Assembly: GCF_009258225.1 (NCBI RefSeq)
Contig: NZ_CP043617.1
Span: forward strand, 248,001 to 312,000
Source: Sulfurimonas lithotrophica
GTDB lineage: Bacteria > Campylobacterota > Campylobacteria > Campylobacterales > Sulfurimonadaceae
Reading direction: 5' to 3'
DNA: 64,000 nucleotides
The translations under genes were made by a program, and so were the position numbers. The notes under the pieces were generated by a model that was not told the origin of the DNA, did no database searches, and saw only the letters and a program-made list of their open reading frames with translations. Positions 21,046 to 62,622 of the stretch are shown here, piece after piece. Numbering within the stretch: position 1 is the stretch's first letter; every line of letters starts with the position of its first letter.

Positions 21046-22245
21046 TTATTTTGCACCCCTCACTAACACAGGTAAAAATTTAGCAGCCCATAGTACAAAG
21101 AGAATTAACCATGTCGTAAATGAGATATCAAATAAAAAGTTTAAACCCCAAGAAAAACCAATATTTAAGCTGTATAAAAAACGAGTTAATACAACTATCT
21201 GGGTAAAGTAAAACAGACCCAATACCAAGCCTTCAGCTTGTGGTGGTTGACCTGAGTGACCGTATGTTACACGAGTACCAAAACCTATTAAAATAGTAGT
21301 TAGAAAACCTAAAGCTATTAAGTGAATACCTAAGAAGTAAAACGAAGTATCTAGGTATAGCTCAGCTATAAGAGAGATAGCATCTAATACAAATGCAGCA
21401 GGTAACCAAAATAAGCCTAGATGCAGTATCCAGATTATCGGATGTGCATTTTTGTCTAGTATTTTCCATTTTAAAAATTCACCAAGCATATATAATCCAA
21501 GAAGAATATCTACGATTATTTCTGCAATTTTCACATAATCATATGAATTAAATGTAGCCAGAATTGTTTTTATAATAAATAGTACAAATACTGTACCAAT
21601 AAACCTTTCATCTTTTTCTTCCATAGAGTGTGAGAAAAAAGGTATCATTCTTTGTCCAACCGCGAATGTTAAAAAGATTAAAAACATAAAAAAAGATAAA
21701 GCTATTGCAAACTGTTGTATCACCGGTATAAATATTGAAATAACCATTAAAATATTTCCGGCTAATCCAAATTTAAAAGCTCTAAGCATCCAAAAAGGAT
21801 CTTCTAAATTTGCAGCGGTAGAGTTTTCAAATAACTTTTTTAGTTTTTTTACTATAAGGTAGTTTCCGTATATTATAAGAGTCGTTGCAATCAATAAAAT
21901 AGTTACATGAGTTAATGCCCCTATTAAAAAAAGAATAAAACCAAATAAATTTATATAAAACAGCTTTTTATAAAAGGGCTTTTCTACATTGTTCATGCCT
22001 GTGTATTTAGGGTAGGTTGTAAATAAAAAGCCTGTAAATATATTTATGAAAACTATAAATATAAGCGAATATACATGAAAAAAAAGGGCATCTACACTAA
22101 GCGTTAGCACACCTTTATATCCCAAAGCAAATATAAGCATCATTATTATCGTATTTGATATCCCTAATGTAAAAAAAGGCTGATGCACTTGTGATAAAAA
22201 ATAGTTTTCTTTTTTAGTTTGCGGTTTTTCTTGTGAAAATGTCAA
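21046..22245 (-). CDS. nnrS: NnrS family membrane protein
   Basis: 399 residues with about twelve membrane segments. The motif GFGTRVTYGHSGQPP near residue 320 is the NnrS hallmark with conserved His. NnrS proteins are haem- and copper-binding membrane proteins that protect cells against nitric oxide stress and accompany denitrification. The start overlaps the upstream radical SAM gene by 4 nt and the stop overlaps the cytochrome gene's 5' region, so the three form one operon. Confidence 0.88.
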   Translation of the reverse strand: MTFSQEKPQTKKENYFLSQVHQPFFTLGISNTIIMMLIFALGYKGVLTLSVDALFFHVYSLIFIVFINIFTGFLFTTYPKYTGMNNVEKPFYKKLFYINLFGFILFLIGALTHVTILLIATTLIIYGNYLIVKKLKKLFENSTAANLEDPFWMLRAFKFGLAGNILMVISIFIPVIQQFAIALSFFMFLIFLTFAVGQRMIPFFSHSMEEKDERFIGTVFVLFIIKTILATFNSYDYVKIAEIIVDILLGLYMLGEFLKWKILDKNAHPIIWILHLGLFWLPAAFVLDAISLIAELYLDTSFYFLGIHLIALGFLTTILIGFGTRVTYGHSGQPPQAEGLVLGLFYFTQIVVLTRFLYSLNIGFSWGLNFLFDISFTTWLILFVLWAAKFLPVLVRGAK

Positions 22246-23516
22246 ATTAAAAACTCCATATCTAGTTTTTTTGCATATGCATTTAGCATAGCTTTTTCAA
22301 AGTCGTTGTTTGTAAAATAGTTATATCCAAAACATTTTTGCCATAATTCATGCGGTTCCATGCACATGTAAAAAAAGACTTTATTTTTACCGCTTTGCCA
22401 TGGTTTAAAAGCTTCATATGCCGATTTAAACATATCTATTTTGGTACTTTCCGGATAAGATGTTTTTCCGCTTGCATCTATGTGGGGGATTTGCGTGATT
22501 TTGGTCTTAAAGTCACGCCCCCGTAATTGTTTGATAACAGGTTTTATAAATGTTAAAGTACCAAAACTAACTAAAACAACTTCATATGAGTGAAATTGTA
22601 CTAAAAGCTTTTCATAAACTCTTTGATACTCATCAAGGTAACCTTCATACTCAACTATGGGATGAAAATGAAAGCCAACTTTTATGTCTTTGTCTGCTAA
22701 TTTTCTGGCACTGTTTATACGTTTTTCGAGTGATGCAGTTAGATGTTCTTCGTTATCGATTATAGTTTGTGTATTTAGACTCCAGGTAACTATTATATTT
22801 TTTGGTACATCGTTTTCTAAAAAGTATTTTATATTATCCGACTTTGTTTTAAACTCTAAGATTACGTTTGGATTATTTTTCGCGAAGTTAAATAGTGCAT
22901 CTAAAACACCTTCACGGTTTCCAAACATAAGCGAATCGGAACTTTGACCCGTACCTATATGGTATGTTTTGTTTTTATCGAGTTTTAGATTTTTTAGTTT
23001 ATCCGCAAAACCTTTGTCAAAAGTAATAGTGTTTTGATTGTAAAAACTTTGAATTGAGCAGTAGGAACAATCAAAGCCGCAACTCTCGACTGCATCTAAT
23101 GTTAAAAGATTACAGCACCTAGTCTTCTCAGATGCAACCGGACACAGACCAAGTCCAAAGCCTTCCTTCTCCTGTACCTTAAATGTGAACTTCTGTTCAG
23201 AGCTTTGTATATGGGGTGTAAAATCTTTATATGAGTTTGCTTTTGTTTTTAAAGCCTCGTAGTCTTTTTTAACTTTTTGCAAAATCGTTTTTTTTTCTCG
23301 AAGAGTGTGAAGTTCATACTCTGAAAATATATCCATTATACTTCCCTCATCCCAAAGAGTTAGATCTCTTGCGATATCTACGGTTTGTTTTATATCTTGA
23401 TGGGAAAAATTAAATTCTATTGCTTTTTTTTTGATAAATTCTTGTTCACCTAATGAAAGTTTTTTAAAAAATGTGTTTTCTATAGCTTTTGCAAACTTTT
23501 GTTCGTAATTGTTCAT
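22242..23516 (-). CDS. Radical SAM protein, spore photoproduct lyase-like
   Basis: 424 residues. C146, C150 and C153 form the CxxxCxxC cluster (CGFDCSYCS) that binds the [4Fe-4S] of radical SAM enzymes, preceded by LCPVASEKTRCC with extra cysteines. The middle (HIGTGQSSDSLMFGNREG and ITWSLNTQ-like stretches) matches the SplB-type family, whose members include DNA photoproduct lyases. A non-sporulating organism would use it for another radical reaction or repair; the substrate is unknown. No Shine-Dalgarno; TAAAAT ends 6 nt before the ATG. Confidence 0.8.
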   Translation of the reverse strand: MNNYEQKFAKAIENTFFKKLSLGEQEFIKKKAIEFNFSHQDIKQTVDIARDLTLWDEGSIMDIFSEYELHTLREKKTILQKVKKDYEALKTKANSYKDFTPHIQSSEQKFTFKVQEKEGFGLGLCPVASEKTRCCNLLTLDAVESCGFDCSYCSIQSFYNQNTITFDKGFADKLKNLKLDKNKTYHIGTGQSSDSLMFGNREGVLDALFNFAKNNPNVILEFKTKSDNIKYFLENDVPKNIIVTWSLNTQTIIDNEEHLTASLEKRINSARKLADKDIKVGFHFHPIVEYEGYLDEYQRVYEKLLVQFHSYEVVLVSFGTLTFIKPVIKQLRGRDFKTKITQIPHIDASGKTSYPESTKIDMFKSAYEAFKPWQSGKNKVFFYMCMEPHELWQKCFGYNYFTNNDFEKAMLNAYAKKLDMEFLI

Positions 23517-52686: not shown

Positions 52687-52710
52687 TAAGAGGTTTTTTG
52701 TCCTCTTATT
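52685..52710 (+). terminator. Hairpin after argS
   Basis: AATAAGAGG and CCTCTTATT form a perfect 9-bp stem around an 8-nt loop (TTTTTTGT). The right arm runs into the regulatory box at 52709, so the terminator and operator share two bases. Confidence 0.6.
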
Positions 52711-52722
52711 GATACAAATCAA
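52709..52722 (+). promoter_or_regulatory. Fnr-type box upstream of the pentaheme cytochrome
   Basis: TTGATACAAATCAA is a perfect TTGAT-N4-ATCAA site. TAGAAT at 52744-52749, 21 nt downstream, is a plausible -10, placing the box centre near -41. It would activate the cytochrome and hemerythrin-PAS genes. Confidence 0.75.
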
Positions 52723-52778
52723 GTAAAAATATTTATTCTTAGATAGAATTCAACCTATATCAAAAATAAGGTTTAGGT

Positions 52779-53885
52779 ATGAAAGTTTTACTTTATATTT
52801 TATCTATTACTACAATTCTTTTTGCATCTACACACGATACGGCTGCATGTAAAAAATGTCATCCGTTAATAGCACAAGAGTTTGAGAACTCAATGCATAA
52901 AAAATCATCTATATATGATGACAAAATTCATAAAGCCGTATGGGATAAACACCCCGCATCTGCCAAAGGTAATTATAAATGTGCAAAATGCCATACTCCA
53001 AACGCTAAAGAAGCTAAGGCTCAAAAAGAGGGTATTTCATGTATAAGTTGCCATACTATTTCAAATGTAGAAAAACACGCCCAATCAAATAAAAATATTT
53101 ATTCCGGTGAGAAAAAGAAGTTTTACTCTGCTGAGATTGGTAGAGAAAATGAAAAAGTAATTTATAAAAAAGAGAGTTCACTTTTTGGTATGAACGTTAC
53201 AACTACGGGTTCTGCATACCATGATCTGGATTATACAAATGAAAATTTTTATAACGCAAATGTATGTATGGGTTGTCATTCACATAAACAAAATTCACAT
53301 GAGTTTTCAGTATGTACAACAGAAGAAGAGGGTGCTAAGGATAAAAAAACAAACTGTATAACTTGTCATATGCCAAAAGTTGACGGCTCGGCTACAACGG
53401 TTCGTATAAGCAAACAACACTCTTTTCACGGATTTGCAGGTGCTCACACAAAACCTCAAATGCTTAAAAAATACGTAGAATTCGGATTTGAAAAAAATTC
53501 AAACAGTTTTGAAATTATTGTGCATAATAAAGCTCCGCATAACTTGATGACACATCCTCTAAGGGTTGTACAATTAAGAGTAAATCATATTAGAGATGCA
53601 AAATCTACGGCATTGAAAACCCAAACTTTTGTAAAAGTAATCGGTACCGAAGGTAAACCTTCTATGCCTTGGTTGGCTACCGAAGTTGTTAAAGATACCA
53701 TGATTAAAGCTAATGAAAAACGTAAAGTAAAATATGATAAAAAATTAAAAAGCGGTGATACGGTAGAAGTTATACTTGGATACTATATAGTAAATCCAAA
53801 AGCTGTTGAAAAGTTAAATTTACAAGATGACAAAGCAGCTACCGAATTCAAAATTTTAAAAAGTCAAAATATAAATATAGAGTAG
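52779..53885 (+). CDS. Pentaheme c-type cytochrome
   Basis: 368 residues with a signal peptide (KVLLYILSITTILFAS). Five CxxCH motifs are visible: C24-H28, C68-H72, C88-H92, C163-H167 and C193-H197. The spacing resembles the cytochrome c554-like multihaem group. The C-terminal ~160 residues lack haem motifs and look beta-rich. It is probably a periplasmic electron carrier or nitrogen/sulfur-oxide reductase component; which one is not readable. It lies in an operon with the next gene (6-nt gap). Confidence 0.85.
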   Translation: MKVLLYILSITTILFASTHDTAACKKCHPLIAQEFENSMHKKSSIYDDKIHKAVWDKHPASAKGNYKCAKCHTPNAKEAKAQKEGISCISCHTISNVEKHAQSNKNIYSGEKKKFYSAEIGRENEKVIYKKESSLFGMNVTTTGSAYHDLDYTNENFYNANVCMGCHSHKQNSHEFSVCTTEEEGAKDKKTNCITCHMPKVDGSATTVRISKQHSFHGFAGAHTKPQMLKKYVEFGFEKNSNSFEIIVHNKAPHNLMTHPLRVVQLRVNHIRDAKSTALKTQTFVKVIGTEGKPSMPWLATEVVKDTMIKANEKRKVKYDKKLKSGDTVEVILGYYIVNPKAVEKLNLQDDKAATEFKILKSQNINIE

Positions 53886-55726: not shown

Positions 55727-56725
55727 TTATTTATATTTTTCTTCCCAAGCTTCAAAAGCCGGTGTAAAGTATTCTATACGAACCTTTTTAAATTCACGTG
55801 AACTATAAAGAGGCATATATGATCGGTTCTCTATCTCCTTAGACATCTCTTCTATGATAGAGTTTGTTTCATCCGTAGTTTTGCCGTGAACCATGGTAAA
55901 AAGATTATATGGCCAATTTTGGTATTTAGGACGAAGGTAACAGTGGCTTACTGCGGAGAATGCAGCAGCTTTTTCTCCGATATCTTCACCTTTTTTACCT
56001 TCATCTACATCCCATACAACCATGGCATTAGCGTTAAAGCCAGCTTTACGGTGATTTAATATAGATGCAAAACGTCTCATTATACCCGCATCTTGAAGCT
56101 CTTGCAATACTTCAAAAAATCTATCATATGATATATTTAGTTGATCTACTATATTTTTAAAAGGCTCACCGGTAATTTCTATATCATATTGAGCCATGCG
56201 GATAATATCGTGATGCAAAGGTGTTAGCTCTATATCTTTATGTACTACTTTTTTAACTTCTTCTTTTTTCTCGTCTTTTCCGGTTGTATTTAGTTTTACG
56301 TTGATTTTAAACAGTTTAAGTGTAGGAAGCATAATATAATCATCTGCATTTGTTAGTTTAGCTAACACTTCGAGAGTCTTTTCTAATCCGAATTTGCTAT
56401 CAGGTGCAACTGCCAATGTGAACCAAATATTAAAATCATGGTTTCTCTCATAATTATGTGAAATACCAGGATGAGAATTTATAATTTTAACGGCAGAATT
56501 GATAAGTTCAGGTTTAACTTTAAATGCTACCAGAGACGACTTATATCCTAGCCTCTTGGTGTCAAATATAGCAGATGTTTGACGAATAATTTTATTCTTT
56601 TTTTCTTCCTTTAGGATGTTTAAAACTTCATCTTCACTTATACCGAGTTCATCTGCTATTACTGCAAACGGTTTAGCAACCAATGGAAATTTTTTTTGAA
56701 TCCTTGATAGTATTTCATCTTTCAT
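55727..56725 (-). CDS. Fused siroheme decarboxylase homologue (AhbAB/NirDL-GH type)
   Basis: 332 residues made of two homologous Lrp/AsnC-type halves (about 1-150 and 165-332), each with a winged helix (ADELGISEDEVLNILKEE; VDQLNISYDRFFEVLQEL) and a RAM-like domain. NirDLGH and AhbAB proteins of this type decarboxylate siroheme on the route to haem d1 or haem, and the second half has HCYLRPKYQNWPYNLFTMVHG resembling their catalytic region. Both halves in one chain is the notable point. Divergent from precorrin-2 dehydrogenase, which makes siroheme. Confidence 0.83.
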   Translation of the reverse strand: MKDEILSRIQKKFPLVAKPFAVIADELGISEDEVLNILKEEKKNKIIRQTSAIFDTKRLGYKSSLVAFKVKPELINSAVKIINSHPGISHNYERNHDFNIWFTLAVAPDSKFGLEKTLEVLAKLTNADDYIMLPTLKLFKINVKLNTTGKDEKKEEVKKVVHKDIELTPLHHDIIRMAQYDIEITGEPFKNIVDQLNISYDRFFEVLQELQDAGIMRRFASILNHRKAGFNANAMVVWDVDEGKKGEDIGEKAAAFSAVSHCYLRPKYQNWPYNLFTMVHGKTTDETNSIIEEMSKEIENRSYMPLYSSREFKKVRIEYFTPAFEAWEEKYK

Positions 56726-56803: not shown

Positions 56804-56817
56804 TTGATACAAATCAA
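56804..56817 (+). promoter_or_regulatory. Fnr-type box of the precorrin-2 dehydrogenase promoter
   Basis: A perfect TTGATACAAATCAA, identical over all 14 bp to the box at 52709. TATTAT at 56841-56846 begins 23 nt downstream, so the box centre falls near -42 relative to a start near 56853. Confidence 0.75.
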
Positions 56818-56867
56818 TTATATAATTTATCAGAATATGCTATTATACTAAAAAAAGAAGGTTGCTT

Positions 56868-57446
56868 GTGGCATATTTTCCTGCGTTTTTTAAATTAGAC
56901 AATAAAAAAATTTTAATAGTCGGCGGTGGTTATATCGCTTATGAAAAATTAGATCATCTATTAGACTTCACAAAAGATATTTCCGTAATCGCATTGGAAC
57001 TCTCCGCTGATATGAAAAAATTAATTGAAACAAATAATTTAAGTTACGAACAACGTGCTTATAAAGTAGGAGATATTAAAGATTTTGCAGTTGTTATCGT
57101 TGCAGTAGATGATATACCTCTTCAAGCAGATATATTTAAAGAGTCTAAAAAATATAACTGTTTATGTAATGCAGTCGATTCGGTAGATTATTGCGACTTT
57201 ATTTTCCCTTCTTATATCAAAAAAGACGATTTAACCATAGCAGTATCTACTTCAGGTGCATCTCCTGCTATGGCAAAACGCATCAGGATGTATCTTGAAG
57301 ATACAATCCCAGACAGTGTAGGCGAGTTTTTAAAAGAGATGAAAAAGTTACGTAGCACACTTCCTAAAGGAAAAGAAAGAATGAAGATGCTTGATGAAAA
57401 AGCAAAAAAATATATACAAGGTTGGAAAAATGGTAATGAATCCTAA
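56868..57446 (+). CDS. Precorrin-2 dehydrogenase (siroheme synthase N-domain)
   Basis: About 192 residues, with an NAD-binding GGGYIAYEKL and CNAVDSVDYCDFIFPSYI, matching the Met8/CysG N-domain that oxidises precorrin-2 to sirohydrochlorin. Iron chelation then yields siroheme, the substrate of the divergent decarboxylase homologue. GTG 56868 is chosen because AAGAAGG lies 6 nt upstream; the TTG at 56862 would have no spacing. The predicted transcript start is only ~15 nt upstream. Confidence 0.88.
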   Translation: MAYFPAFFKLDNKKILIVGGGYIAYEKLDHLLDFTKDISVIALELSADMKKLIETNNLSYEQRAYKVGDIKDFAVVIVAVDDIPLQADIFKESKKYNCLCNAVDSVDYCDFIFPSYIKKDDLTIAVSTSGASPAMAKRIRMYLEDTIPDSVGEFLKEMKKLRSTLPKGKERMKMLDEKAKKYIQGWKNGNES

Positions 57447-57818: not shown

Positions 57819-59054
57819 CTAACTCTTAAATCTAATCATATATATTATATCTTTTAAAACAAATAAGCTTCCAACTGATAAAAAGCTAACTCCGCTATAA
57901 AAAATTTCATTTGATGCAAACAATATCCCTGCAGTAGATATAATAATACCTAAGGCATTAAGCCAAAACTGAAGATTTGCACTCTTTTGAGGAATCATAT
58001 CTGCAAGCATAGGGACTTTTTCTTTTCCTACAAGCGGTGAAAATCTTTCATACCATACTAAAAAAGGTACTATTTTATATAGATGTCCGATAATTAAAAA
58101 ACTAACGTATCCACCAATTAGTAACCATCCTATAGAGATAATAAGATTCTCACTCGGAATTAAAAGATATAACATTGCTAAAATTAAAGCTGCAAGTAAA
58201 GATATATAAGAAAAAATAAGCGATATAAAATATATGTCATTTTCGATTCTAACTCTTTTTTTATATATAATATATACTTGGTAAAAGTATAATGTAGATG
58301 CAATAATGCTTAGGATATATCCTATAGTATCTAAAATAGCAATATCAAGTATGGGAGACAAAGTTATAGAAGTAACTCCTAGGGATAATGTAAGTAGTGC
58401 ACTTTTAACATAGTCCCAGCTAAAACCGTGGGAGAGCCAAAACATAGGTAGTAGAATTAAACTCATACCCATAATCGTTACACCGACATAACCTACAAAT
58501 ACTAAAAATATATGTGCATGAAGTAAAGCTGGTATATCTACAACGATAACACCGGCATATCCTAATGCCATTATTATTCCAAATATCATACCTACAGCTA
58601 AAAAAATATTTGCTATAAGTACACTAATTATTACAAAGTTATATTTTTCAACCTTTTTAATTGTTAAAAATGTCTCAAATAAAAATACTGATAATGCTAT
58701 TAAAACGGTAAGTCCGCCAAAGGGCAATAGTATAGGTACAAAAACAAAACCTATAGCCATCAAAATTGTTCCGATTAAAAGAAGAGGATATATTATGTAG
58801 TATAAATCAACTGCAAAATGACCGACTTCAAGTACTACAGGAACAAGTTGAGCCATTGCACCGAAAATTACCATCATTACAAAACCGAGTAAAAAAAGAT
58901 GCACCCATGCAAGTAGATTAGGTTCTACACTTTGAATCGTTGTAGTATCAAAGGTAAAAAGTAAAAAAGTGCTAAGAACGAAAACAACAGCACCTATAAT
59001 AAAGTATGGTGCTATAAGTTTAAACGGCGGTGCAAAATCAGTTGATACTGCCAA
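57819..59054 (-). CDS. Polytopic membrane protein, haem-copper oxidase I/NnrS-like
   Basis: 411 residues with about twelve membrane segments. Repeated His in membrane helices (AWVHLFLLGFVMMVIFGAM, ALLHAHIFLVFVGYVG) and the loop HLYKIVPFLVWYERFSPLVG are reminiscent of cytochrome oxidase subunit I relatives and NnrS. It may bind haem, but the copper ligands of real oxidases are not apparent. TTG start, 7 nt after the DUF2249-like gene, so part of that operon. Confidence 0.65.
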   Translation of the reverse strand: MAVSTDFAPPFKLIAPYFIIGAVVFVLSTFLLFTFDTTTIQSVEPNLLAWVHLFLLGFVMMVIFGAMAQLVPVVLEVGHFAVDLYYIIYPLLLIGTILMAIGFVFVPILLPFGGLTVLIALSVFLFETFLTIKKVEKYNFVIISVLIANIFLAVGMIFGIIMALGYAGVIVVDIPALLHAHIFLVFVGYVGVTIMGMSLILLPMFWLSHGFSWDYVKSALLTLSLGVTSITLSPILDIAILDTIGYILSIIASTLYFYQVYIIYKKRVRIENDIYFISLIFSYISLLAALILAMLYLLIPSENLIISIGWLLIGGYVSFLIIGHLYKIVPFLVWYERFSPLVGKEKVPMLADMIPQKSANLQFWLNALGIIISTAGILFASNEIFYSGVSFLSVGSLFVLKDIIYMIRFKS

Positions 59055-59061
59055 AGTTTAT

Positions 59062-59403
59062 TTATCCGTTACAAGTATTTGAGGCAAAATCAGTAGTAGC
59101 CTCTGCACCGTCTTTTCTGGTAAAAACGACTTTTACGTTTCCGTTATCAAGATCCTGAATAACATAGTTAAATTCAGCATCTATTTTTGGAAATAAACCA
59201 CCCGGAGATTTATGATTAATCATAACAAGTGCACTGTTTTCATCAAGCAGTCTAAGACCTGCCATAGCATTTACCATAGGATCCGGCGGTGTACACATAC
59301 TAGTATCGAACTGATAAACATCCACACCTTCATTTGTATATTTGAAAAAATCAACAGTAGAACCTGCAACATCTATTTTTTGAGCATCATTAGGTAAACT
59401 CAT
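59062..59403 (-). CDS. DUF2249-like protein
   Basis: 113 residues; DTSMCTPPDPMVNAMAGLRLL and NHKSPGGLFPKIDAEF resemble the DUF2249/TusA-like fold. The conserved Cys (MCTPPDP) takes the place of the sulfur-carrier Cys, so sulfur or metal chemistry is possible. It sits between a SufT-like gene and the polytopic membrane gene. Confidence 0.68.
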   Translation of the reverse strand: MSLPNDAQKIDVAGSTVDFFKYTNEGVDVYQFDTSMCTPPDPMVNAMAGLRLLDENSALVMINHKSPGGLFPKIDAEFNYVIQDLDNGNVKVVFTRKDGAEATTDFASNTCNG

Positions 59404-59427
59404 TTTTTATCCTTTTATTATTTTAAA

Positions 59428-59733
59428 TTACATTCCGCCAAGTTTTGCTTTTACTTCATCTGTTGCCATGGATATGTTCCACTCAGGCTCCCAAACAAGT
59501 TCCACATCAGCTTCTGCTACACTAGGCAGTTCTCTCAAAACAGCCTCTTTTACCCATTGCACAATCATTTGATGAAGAGGACAAGCTTTCGTACTTAAAG
59601 TCATAGTTACTAAAACCTTCATATCTTCATCACATGTTGCATCGTATATTAGTCCCATTTCGACAAGGTTAAACCCGACTTCCGGATCATTAACGGTTGA
59701 AACAGCTTTAAAAATTTGCTCTTTTGTTACCAT
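59428..59733 (-). CDS. SufT/PaaD-like Fe-S maturation protein (DUF59)
   Basis: 101 residues of the MIP18/DUF59 fold. NDPEVGFNLVEMGLIYD and TLSTKACPLHQMIVQWV are characteristic, including the conserved Cys. Members help insert Fe-S clusters in target proteins. It opens the operon with the DUF2249-like and membrane genes, downstream of a perfect Fnr-type box. Leader ~18 nt, AAGG near the ATG. Confidence 0.86.
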   Translation of the reverse strand: MVTKEQIFKAVSTVNDPEVGFNLVEMGLIYDATCDEDMKVLVTMTLSTKACPLHQMIVQWVKEAVLRELPSVAEADVELVWEPEWNISMATDEVKAKLGGM

Positions 59734-59786
59734 AAATTAGTGCCTTATTTTTGAGAGATTATAACTAAGAGGATATACAAAGGTCT

Positions 59787-59800
59787 TTGATATATATCAA
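59787..59800 (-). promoter_or_regulatory. Fnr-type box of the SufT-like operon
   Basis: TTGATATATATCAA is a perfect palindromic box. On the minus strand TATAAT (complement of 59758-59763) begins 23 nt away, giving a centre near -42. The box contains the TGA stop of the upstream MFS gene. Confidence 0.75.
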
Positions 59801-61992: not shown

Positions 61993-62622
61993 ATGAAAAC
62001 TCAACTACAAAATATAGTTCTTTTTGATAATCTGGATGAAGAAACAATCCTAAACATTGAGAGCTTTACAACTGAACATAAAGCAAGTAAAGATGAACTT
62101 CTGTTTTATGAAGGCGATGATTCTAAATACTTATATCTTTTAACAAAAGGCATAGTAAAACTTTATAAAACTTCATCTCAACATAAAGAGATAGTTTTAA
62201 AATATTTTAATTCCAACGAATTAATAGGTGAAGTTGCAAATTTTGAACATATACCTTATCCGGCTACTGCTAAAGCTTATACAGATGTCGAGTATTTAAA
62301 AATAGATTTTGACAAATTAAAAGAGGTAATTTTAACATCACCTGTTTTATCTCTTAGAATGCTTACATCTTTAATATATAAAATAAAAAATTTAGAAAAT
62401 CTAATATCTACAAACTTGGTTTTAGATTCTAAAGAGAGAATAGCTAAATATCTTTATTCTCATTCCGAAGATTTTTTTGAAACCAAAAATATTATAATTG
62501 CCGAGGTACTTGGAGTTTCTCCTGAAACATTGTCTAGAATTTTAAAGTTTTTTAAAGATGAAGATATCATAGATGTCAAAGATAAAAAGATAGATAAACA
62601 AAGACTTGAAGAATATTTTTAG
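61993..62622 (+). CDS. Crp/Fnr regulator with Fnr-type recognition helix (DNR/NnrR-like)
   Basis: 209 residues: a sensory beta-barrel (about 10-120; LFYEGDDSKYLYLLTKGIVKL), dimer helix and winged helix. There is no cysteine, so no Fnr Fe-S cluster. The recognition helix is GVSPETLSRIL, with E-x-x-S-R as in Fnr, which reads TTGAT-N4-ATCAA. Dnr and NnrR proteins of this form sense nitric oxide through haem. Boxes of that type flank several operons within 10 kb. Predicted leaderless. A hairpin follows. Confidence 0.88.
   Translation: MKTQLQNIVLFDNLDEETILNIESFTTEHKASKDELLFYEGDDSKYLYLLTKGIVKLYKTSSQHKEIVLKYFNSNELIGEVANFEHIPYPATAKAYTDVEYLKIDFDKLKEVILTSPVLSLRMLTSLIYKIKNLENLISTNLVLDSKERIAKYLYSHSEDFFETKNIIIAEVLGVSPETLSRILKFFKDEDIIDVKDKKIDKQRLEEYF

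Follow-up and report, generated by a model that had tools for sequence, protein, structure and literature searches.

Proteins of the DUF2249 family (COG4309) were noted in 2005 beside nor genes, under the control of NnrR, NsrR or DNR and with function unknown (accessible parts of PMC1274295). In the available portions of a 2024 study the function was still called unknown, although DUF2249 genes of Haloferax mediterranei were induced under denitrification and the family was tied to the heme-copper-oxidase (HCO) superfamily through a citation of Pei et al. 2014 (PMC11218638). In Thermus thermophilus NAR1, the DUF2249 proteins DrpA and DrpB, the latter beginning with a DUF1858 domain, were read by their authors as nitrate sensors, and in a drpAB double mutant the NarG produced had roughly one tenth of the activity (available sections of PMC6282519). 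Among membrane proteins, NnrS (PF05940) is an HCO-like protein of NO-type regulons, and NorB and CcoN are catalytic subunits of the HCO superfamily; SufT, PaaD and MIP18 have the DUF59 domain. The heme-copper-oxidase-homology (HCOH) proteins of Pei et al. 2014 reportedly combine a 12-helix HCO scaffold with few conserved histidines in a denitrification context, features in which they resemble the membrane protein described below.

Here we analysed a 64,000-nucleotide stretch of the Sulfurimonas lithotrophica genome (NZ_CP043617.1, positions 248,001 to 312,000; hereafter the window), in which a DUF59 gene, a DUF2249 gene and a gene for a membrane protein, MemP, stand together. This three-gene unit was not described in the literature searched (themes DUF2249, COG4309, HCOH, NnrR and NO in Campylobacterota); the available part of a study of the Bradyrhizobium NnrR regulon names no 'metal-sulfur', SufT or PaaD protein, and its four 'DUF' names are different ones (PMC6710368). 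Within these searches, the separate parts are known and what appears to be new is MemP, DUF59 and DUF2249 as a unit.

Layout, linkage and distribution of the cassette

A preliminary description had placed an operon of three genes at 57819-59800, and three co-directional minus-strand genes are indeed found there, separated by intergenic gaps of 24 and 7 bases (Table 1). Directly past the window end follow norC, norB, nirS, a cytochrome c gene preceded by a further perfect box, and genes resembling nirJ, nirF and nirE, the names resting on reading of the sequence and, for nirS, on PF02239. A gene for NnrS lies elsewhere in the window (21046-22245), behind another gene (22242-23516) that carries a perfect box inside it at 22623.

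Table 1 Features of the cassette and its surroundings in the window
Feature	Position	Strand	Remark
DUF59 / FeS_assembly_P protein (PaaD/MIP18-like)	59428..59733	-	101 aa
DUF2249 protein, TusA-like fold (model)	59062..59403	-	113 aa
MemP, predicted 12-helix membrane protein, predicted heme-copper-oxidase fold	57819..59054	-	411 aa, TTG start
Fnr-type box TTGATATATATCAA, perfect	59787..59800	-	centre ~-42 from inferred start
Putative -10 TATAAT	59758..59763	-	read from sequence
CRP/FNR-family regulator, candidate reader of the box	61993..62622	+	0 Cys, ETLSR in recognition helix
NirD-like siroheme decarboxylase (heme d1 pathway)	55727..56725	-	context, downstream of perfect box
Siroheme-synthase-like NAD-binding protein	56862..57446	+	context, other side of box 56804-56817
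Perfect box between the heme d1 pathway pair	56804-56817

Co-occurrence of the genes in other denitrifiers had been proposed as a check, and the linkage was recovered both in relatives and across phyla. By tblastn, both partners lay beside MemP, on the same strand and within 156 bp, in 73 of 80 loci (of 512 confirmed), with DUF59 present in 76 and DUF2249 in 77 of the 80. Three of the seven loci without the full set are located at contig ends (L041, L087 and L108); DUF59 was missing at L053, L066 and L104, and DUF2249 at L080. Among other relatives, the 29 best MemP loci (L004-L032) included 26 with both small genes next to MemP, and 11 of the 29 are also among the 80. The gene order was DUF2249-MemP-DUF59 in all 73 complete loci, and the DUF59-first order was that of the window and its closest relative, L004. 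When 878 ORFs from the 80 loci were clustered, the three cassette genes were recovered in 80, 73 and 69 loci and no fourth neighbour cluster exceeded 27 of 80, a lower bound given the restriction to ORFs of at least 80 aa and the unequal flanks; on this basis, conservation is confined to these three genes and does not reflect more extended synteny.

The loci of the closest MemP relatives were titled Sulfurimonas, Arcobacter and other Campylobacterota, along with a few other titles. Two metagenome-assembled genomes titled Helicobacter pylori (L037) and Candidatus Methylomirabilis (L047) encode a MemP 66% and 61% identical to that of the window, and these titles may be misnomers or reflect contamination. 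A DUF1858-like gene, recognized by reading, occurs near the cassette in 5 of the 80 loci, for example at about +1.9 kb in L100, and a DUF1858 is annotated near the Mesorhizobium cassette. DUF59 is less exclusive to the cassette than MemP. Short DUF59 frames apart from MemP were found in several relatives (among them G006, G007, G011, G013, G043 and G044), including two with neither MemP nor a cassette-type DUF2249 (G043 and G044). In G020 the cassette DUF59 (C26:40032-40250) shares a contig with nirS, at a distance of about 8 kb, and is separated from MemP and DUF2249. Long DUF59 frames of 340-410 aa also occur in relatives and would represent Mrp-type fusions.

Beyond Campylobacterota, a tblastn search of plasmids returned MemP relatives in 88 records, including 46 from Sinorhizobium and 18 from Thermus, and 16 plasmid stretches were examined. 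Two T. thermophilus plasmids carry an island of the nar operon, DrpA, DrpB, a small protein, a protoglobin, MemP and DUF59, which in one of the two is interrupted by a transposase around the small protein, and the T. parvatiensis stretch contains the drp genes and MemP, with DUF59 matched only in part. The stretch from T. thermophilus HB8 (L119 5707-6563) holds DUF59 and part of MemP, without nar or drpAB. Nine of the ten rhizobial stretches are arranged as DUF2249-MemP-DUF2249-DUF59, and the Mesorhizobium one as MemP-DUF2249-DUF59; nnrS follows the cassette in all ten, nirK is present in eight, and where annotation extends further upstream it shows norD (or a VWA gene) together with hemN ahead of the cassette. 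These nar, nnrS and nirK genes, together with the nor-nir cluster adjoining the window, bear out the denitrifier setting assumed in the preliminary description. On a haloarchaeal plasmid, the gene for a MemP relative has a DrpA-like DUF2249 gene in its vicinity, and no DUF59 match was found in this stretch; the MemP relative and a second membrane protein there share similar motifs (L207 3011-4369 and 4428-5606). In an Aliarcobacter butzleri plasmid, MemP and DUF59 lie near a Tn3 transposase. The cassette genes of this plasmid (L114 1683-7540) have both Tn3 and IS21 transposases as neighbours, which suggests that the cassette is mobile.

Predicted fold and ligands of MemP and its partners

Searches of Pfam, NCBIfam, PHROGs and PDB sequences yielded nothing for MemP at the thresholds applied. 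Its AF2 model, built from a 54-sequence alignment (the window sequence and 53 from the set of 80 loci, with L049 excluded for a stop in frame), reached a pLDDT of 89.3 and a pTM of 0.89 and contains 12 long helices. A Foldseek search with this model had a best E of 1e-5, and in the VIA comparison CcoN (8smr_E) aligned with Z 32.5 and rmsd 3.5 over 386 residues; across CcoN and NorB, Z ranged from 30.5 to 32.5 and rmsd from 3.5 to 3.7 over 372-389 residues, at 12-14% identity. We are thus confident that the modelled MemP has the fold of subunit I of the heme-copper-oxidase superfamily, as the preliminary description had anticipated in calling it a haem-copper-like protein of about 12 helices. 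Against the Pfam COX1 profile (cut-off 34.8 bits), the haloarchaeal MemP relative scored 27.5 bits and a 144-aa protein of the Thermus MemP island 23.1 bits, and these scores below the cut-off support descent of MemP from the superfamily. The 144-aa protein (L113 6665-7099) matches positions 344-406 only of the profile and is possibly a four-helix HCO fragment protein. A profile comparison of MemP and NorB, based on shallow alignments, gave an uninformative probability of 0.7; MemP and NnrS matched weakly, with a probability of 58 and E 1e-4, at an offset of one four-helix unit.

While the fold is shared with NorB and CcoN, the copper/FeB ligand set is not. Five histidines are invariant among the 54 orthologues (H52, H79, H181, H209 and H324). 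H52 and H181 alone remain invariant in a ten-sequence panel that spans three phyla and takes in two paralogues as well as proteins from Thermus, Sinorhizobium and Mesorhizobium. No conserved histidine was found in TM7, where any histidine occurs in 5 of 54 rows and in at most three rows at one position. The HxH pair of TM10 is likewise missing, with H324 in 54 of 54 rows followed by Y or F at +2, and with N, M or Q at the H324 position in paralogues and other phyla. Identification of MemP as NorB or an oxidase was rejected on these TM7 and TM10 ligands: given the absence of a conserved TM7 histidine, MemP should be neither an oxidase nor an NO reductase. NnrS was rejected as well, as MemP has no PF05940 match at E<=1 whereas the NnrS of the window matches at 1e-55. 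In canonical HCOs, the low-spin haem is held by ligands from TM2 and TM10, and a haem between TM2 and TM6 of MemP would be unusual. Haem binding by MemP is a prediction that goes beyond the modelled structure, since an HCO fold alone does not establish haem.

Two further copies of MemP are encoded in the same genome. The second paralogue (L002 1501-2724; C1:2058323-2059519) is 36% identical, has N at the H324 position and is divergent from a gene read as truncated-haemoglobin-like. The third (L003 1345-2646; C1:1784739-1785869) is 29% identical and lies directly behind genes read as hemerythrin-like and as coding for a NosZ-like C-terminus that bears a haem c motif. This third type may also account for the weaker MemP matches found in 26 relatives (E 1e-24 to 1e-11).

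The small partners were assigned to their families at different strengths. The DUF59 protein matched Pfam FeS_assembly_P with E=2.5e-14 and 53.7 bits (cut-off 23.5). Its earlier label 'SufT-like' proved loose: the NCBIfam models for SUF_assoc (84.1 of 143.4 bits), SufT (74.7 of 202.6) and PaaD (78.2 of 180 and 33.3 of 108.15) all matched under their cut-offs. The protein shares with SufT, PaaD and MIP18 the domain and the DPE and T-x-x-CP motifs, and eight of its residues are invariant in 77 of 77 rows (D16, E18, S47, T48, C51, P52, H54 and W60); it differs from SufT and PaaD in being encoded beside MemP in most cassette loci. The DUF2249 protein reached E=1.2e-4 and 22.3 bits against Pfam DUF2249, under the gathering score of 29.5, compared with 118.9 and 121.6 bits for one Thermus and one Sinorhizobium protein. 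The DUF2249 alignment covers the window protein and 36 of the 74 loci usable for this gene. For the model (pLDDT 87), TusA-like chains occupy the four best VIA rows, with Z 8.2-6.9 and rmsd 2.2-2.6 over 70-73 residues, and unrelated rows reach 6.4; the best Foldseek match (E 0.026) is to an unrelated chain, with the SirA-like 3hz7 at rank 38. The modelled fold is TusA-like, with Z values only just above those of unrelated rows. Accordingly, the sulfur-carrier fold proposed earlier stands at the level of the model, but the carrier cysteine does not: at position 39, which corresponds to the TusA CPxP cysteine in the motif register, P is found in 66 of 78 and H in 12 of 78 sequences, and the nearest cysteine, at position 37, is present in 41 of 78. 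N63 and K65 are invariant and enclose H (68 of 78) or S (10 of 78) at position 64 in an Asn-His/Ser-Lys motif. DrpA and DrpB, which share an island with MemP and DUF59 homologues in Thermus, are comparable in part: the single DUF2249 domain of the window protein resembles the PPxPM domain of DrpB, but the operon contains no DrpB, and DrpA aligns as a different subtype of DUF2249.

The upstream box and its candidate reader

The preliminary description had also noted a perfect Fnr-type box at -42. The sequence TTGATATATATCAA is present at 59787-59800 and is centred at about -42 from a transcription start near 59751, as inferred from the TATAAT hexamer. Judged by its frequency in the window, the box alone is weak evidence, with four perfect sites and, at up to one mismatch, 12 sites compared with 6.4 expected, a number reached by 6 of 100 shuffles. 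The 2.4-Mb genome contains 16 perfect boxes vs 6 for the reversed pattern. It is instead the footprint upstream of cassette operons, and not the frequency in the window, that identifies the box as a real conserved element. Among 76 operons in which DUF2249 immediately precedes MemP and the upstream sequence extends for 150 bp or more, which come from related genomes and are non-independent, the box was perfect in 45 and within one mismatch in 61, of which 51 placed it 55-70 bp from the start codon; the window's own operon, with DUF59 first, is outside this set. The reversed pattern was found perfect in 0 and within one mismatch in 1 of 76 regions, and shuffles gave 4 and 63 of 1520, respectively. 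No box within one mismatch was found upstream of the remaining 15 of the 76 operons.

Six of the 16 perfect genomic boxes are intergenic and the other ten overlap ORFs. Two of the intergenic ones precede multihaem cytochromes (L124 and L210) and one separates the heme d1 pathway pair (L125); the other three stand in front of the window cassette operon (L126), the cytochrome c past the window end (L127) and a NosL-like gene (L129). The two multihaem cytochrome c genes, similar to each other and distant in the genome, each stand behind a perfect box (window 52709-53885 and L210 325-1514), and a hemerythrin-PAS protein follows the one in the window.

The CRP/FNR-family protein encoded near the cassette (Table 1) is a candidate reader of the box; it has no cysteine and carries the motif ETLSR in its recognition helix. 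In 18 of the 80 loci (of 512 confirmed) and in 12 of the 29 best loci of relatives, a CRP/FNR gene is located no more than 4 kb from MemP; no such gene was found nearby in the other 62 of the 80, some of which have short flanks. Expression under NO or low oxygen had been anticipated from the box, which is indeed conserved and stands in a denitrification setting. Of the two signals, NO (or nitrate) appears likelier, and low oxygen less likely because the nearby CRP/FNR protein lacks cysteine and because an FNR orthologue is not known in Campylobacterota, according to the available part of a review (PMC6682613).

Denitrification context and proposed role

Among 59 relatives, MemP orthologues (E<1e-100) were detected in 28. 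In raw counts that ignore ancestry, and in which absences from incomplete genomes may be false, nirS (E<1e-20) was found in 26 of these 28 genomes vs 3 of the 31 without a MemP orthologue, and norB (E<1e-200) in 23 of 28 vs 4 of 31. When the divergent cassettes found in G042, G046 and G055 were counted, nirS was present in 27 of 31 genomes with vs 2 of 28 without a cassette, and outside the genus in 5 of 7 vs 1 of 16 (p 0.003). The association has exceptions on both sides. In four genomes a cassette is present but neither nirS nor norB was matched (G002, G023, G046 and G055), and in G002 the cassette adjoins NnrS, which is its neighbour in rhizobia as well. Conversely, G007 and G044 have nirS and no cassette was found in them, so that the cassette appears dispensable for denitrification.

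We propose, with a probability of roughly 0.4, that the cassette is induced by NO or nitrate, that MemP binds NO at a haem, and that its two partners repair iron or Fe-S centres; more generally, the cassette probably aids survival or repair of nitric oxide damage. A CRP/FNR-family regulator responsive to NO or nitrate would act at the box and switch the cassette on together with denitrification. MemP would have lost the copper/FeB ligands but retained the HCO scaffold of 12 helices and a pair of invariant histidines that could hold a single haem b, and may bind NO at the haem while reducing neither O2 nor NO. DUF59, whose domain is found in Fe-S assembly factors, and DUF2249 would be cytosolic partners that dock to MemP and re-supply or repair the iron or Fe-S centres hurt by NO during nitrate or N-oxide respiration. 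A bolder version, in which the oxidase-derived membrane haem protein of a mobile cross-phylum repair cassette senses NO, with its haem between helices 2 and 6, not 2 and 10, and calls in a machine of two proteins to rebuild iron centres damaged by NO, seems to us unlikely.

The main competing explanation, possible although we hold it to be rather doubtful, is that the cassette serves the maturation of one particular enzyme of denitrification (Nor, Nir or Nar), for instance through insertion of haem or iron. This would fit the adjoining nor-nir cluster, the co-occurrence with nirS and norB, the proposal that COG4309 genes, co-transcribed with nor under NnrR or NsrR, are relevant for NO reductase (available part of PMC1274295), and the drpAB mutant, in which NarG is present but Nar activity is low (PMC6282519, in part). 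The presumed client enzyme nevertheless changes from group to group, with nirS in Campylobacterota, nirK in rhizobia and nar in Thermus, and NAR1 is described as taking nitrate only to nitrite (same sections of PMC6282519). Since neighbour enzymes vary and some cassettes occur without nirS and norB, NO tolerance fits better than Nir/Nor assembly, and repair of NO-damaged centres is, by a small margin, preferred to dedicated maturation of these enzymes.

A pure sensor would be unlikely as well; here MemP would act at the membrane to perceive NO, nitrate or nitrite and would signal via DUF2249 to denitrification regulators. The proposed nitrate sensing by DrpA/DrpB and the loss of nitrate dependence of nar expression in the mutants (PMC6282519, available sections) would agree with such a role, as would the CRP/FNR genes near a minority of loci, but such genes were not found near most of the 80, some with short flanks, and DUF59 would have no obvious place in this scheme. 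Repair is preferred to sensing because of the presence of DUF59 and because NarG of the drpAB mutant is poorly active. Finally, it is very improbable that MemP is itself catalytic, as an HCO-superfamily NO reductase or oxidase that the two small proteins mature: the fold match to CcoN and NorB and the operon shared with an Fe-S-assembly-type protein point in this direction, but the scarcity of TM7 histidines and the retention of only H52 and H181 in the wider panel argue against it, and norC and norB already adjoin the cassette.

Taken together, a fixed three-gene unit combined with a structural prediction makes the function of DUF2249 testable in tractable organisms, and the cassette may explain how denitrifiers keep their metal enzymes working while producing nitric oxide.
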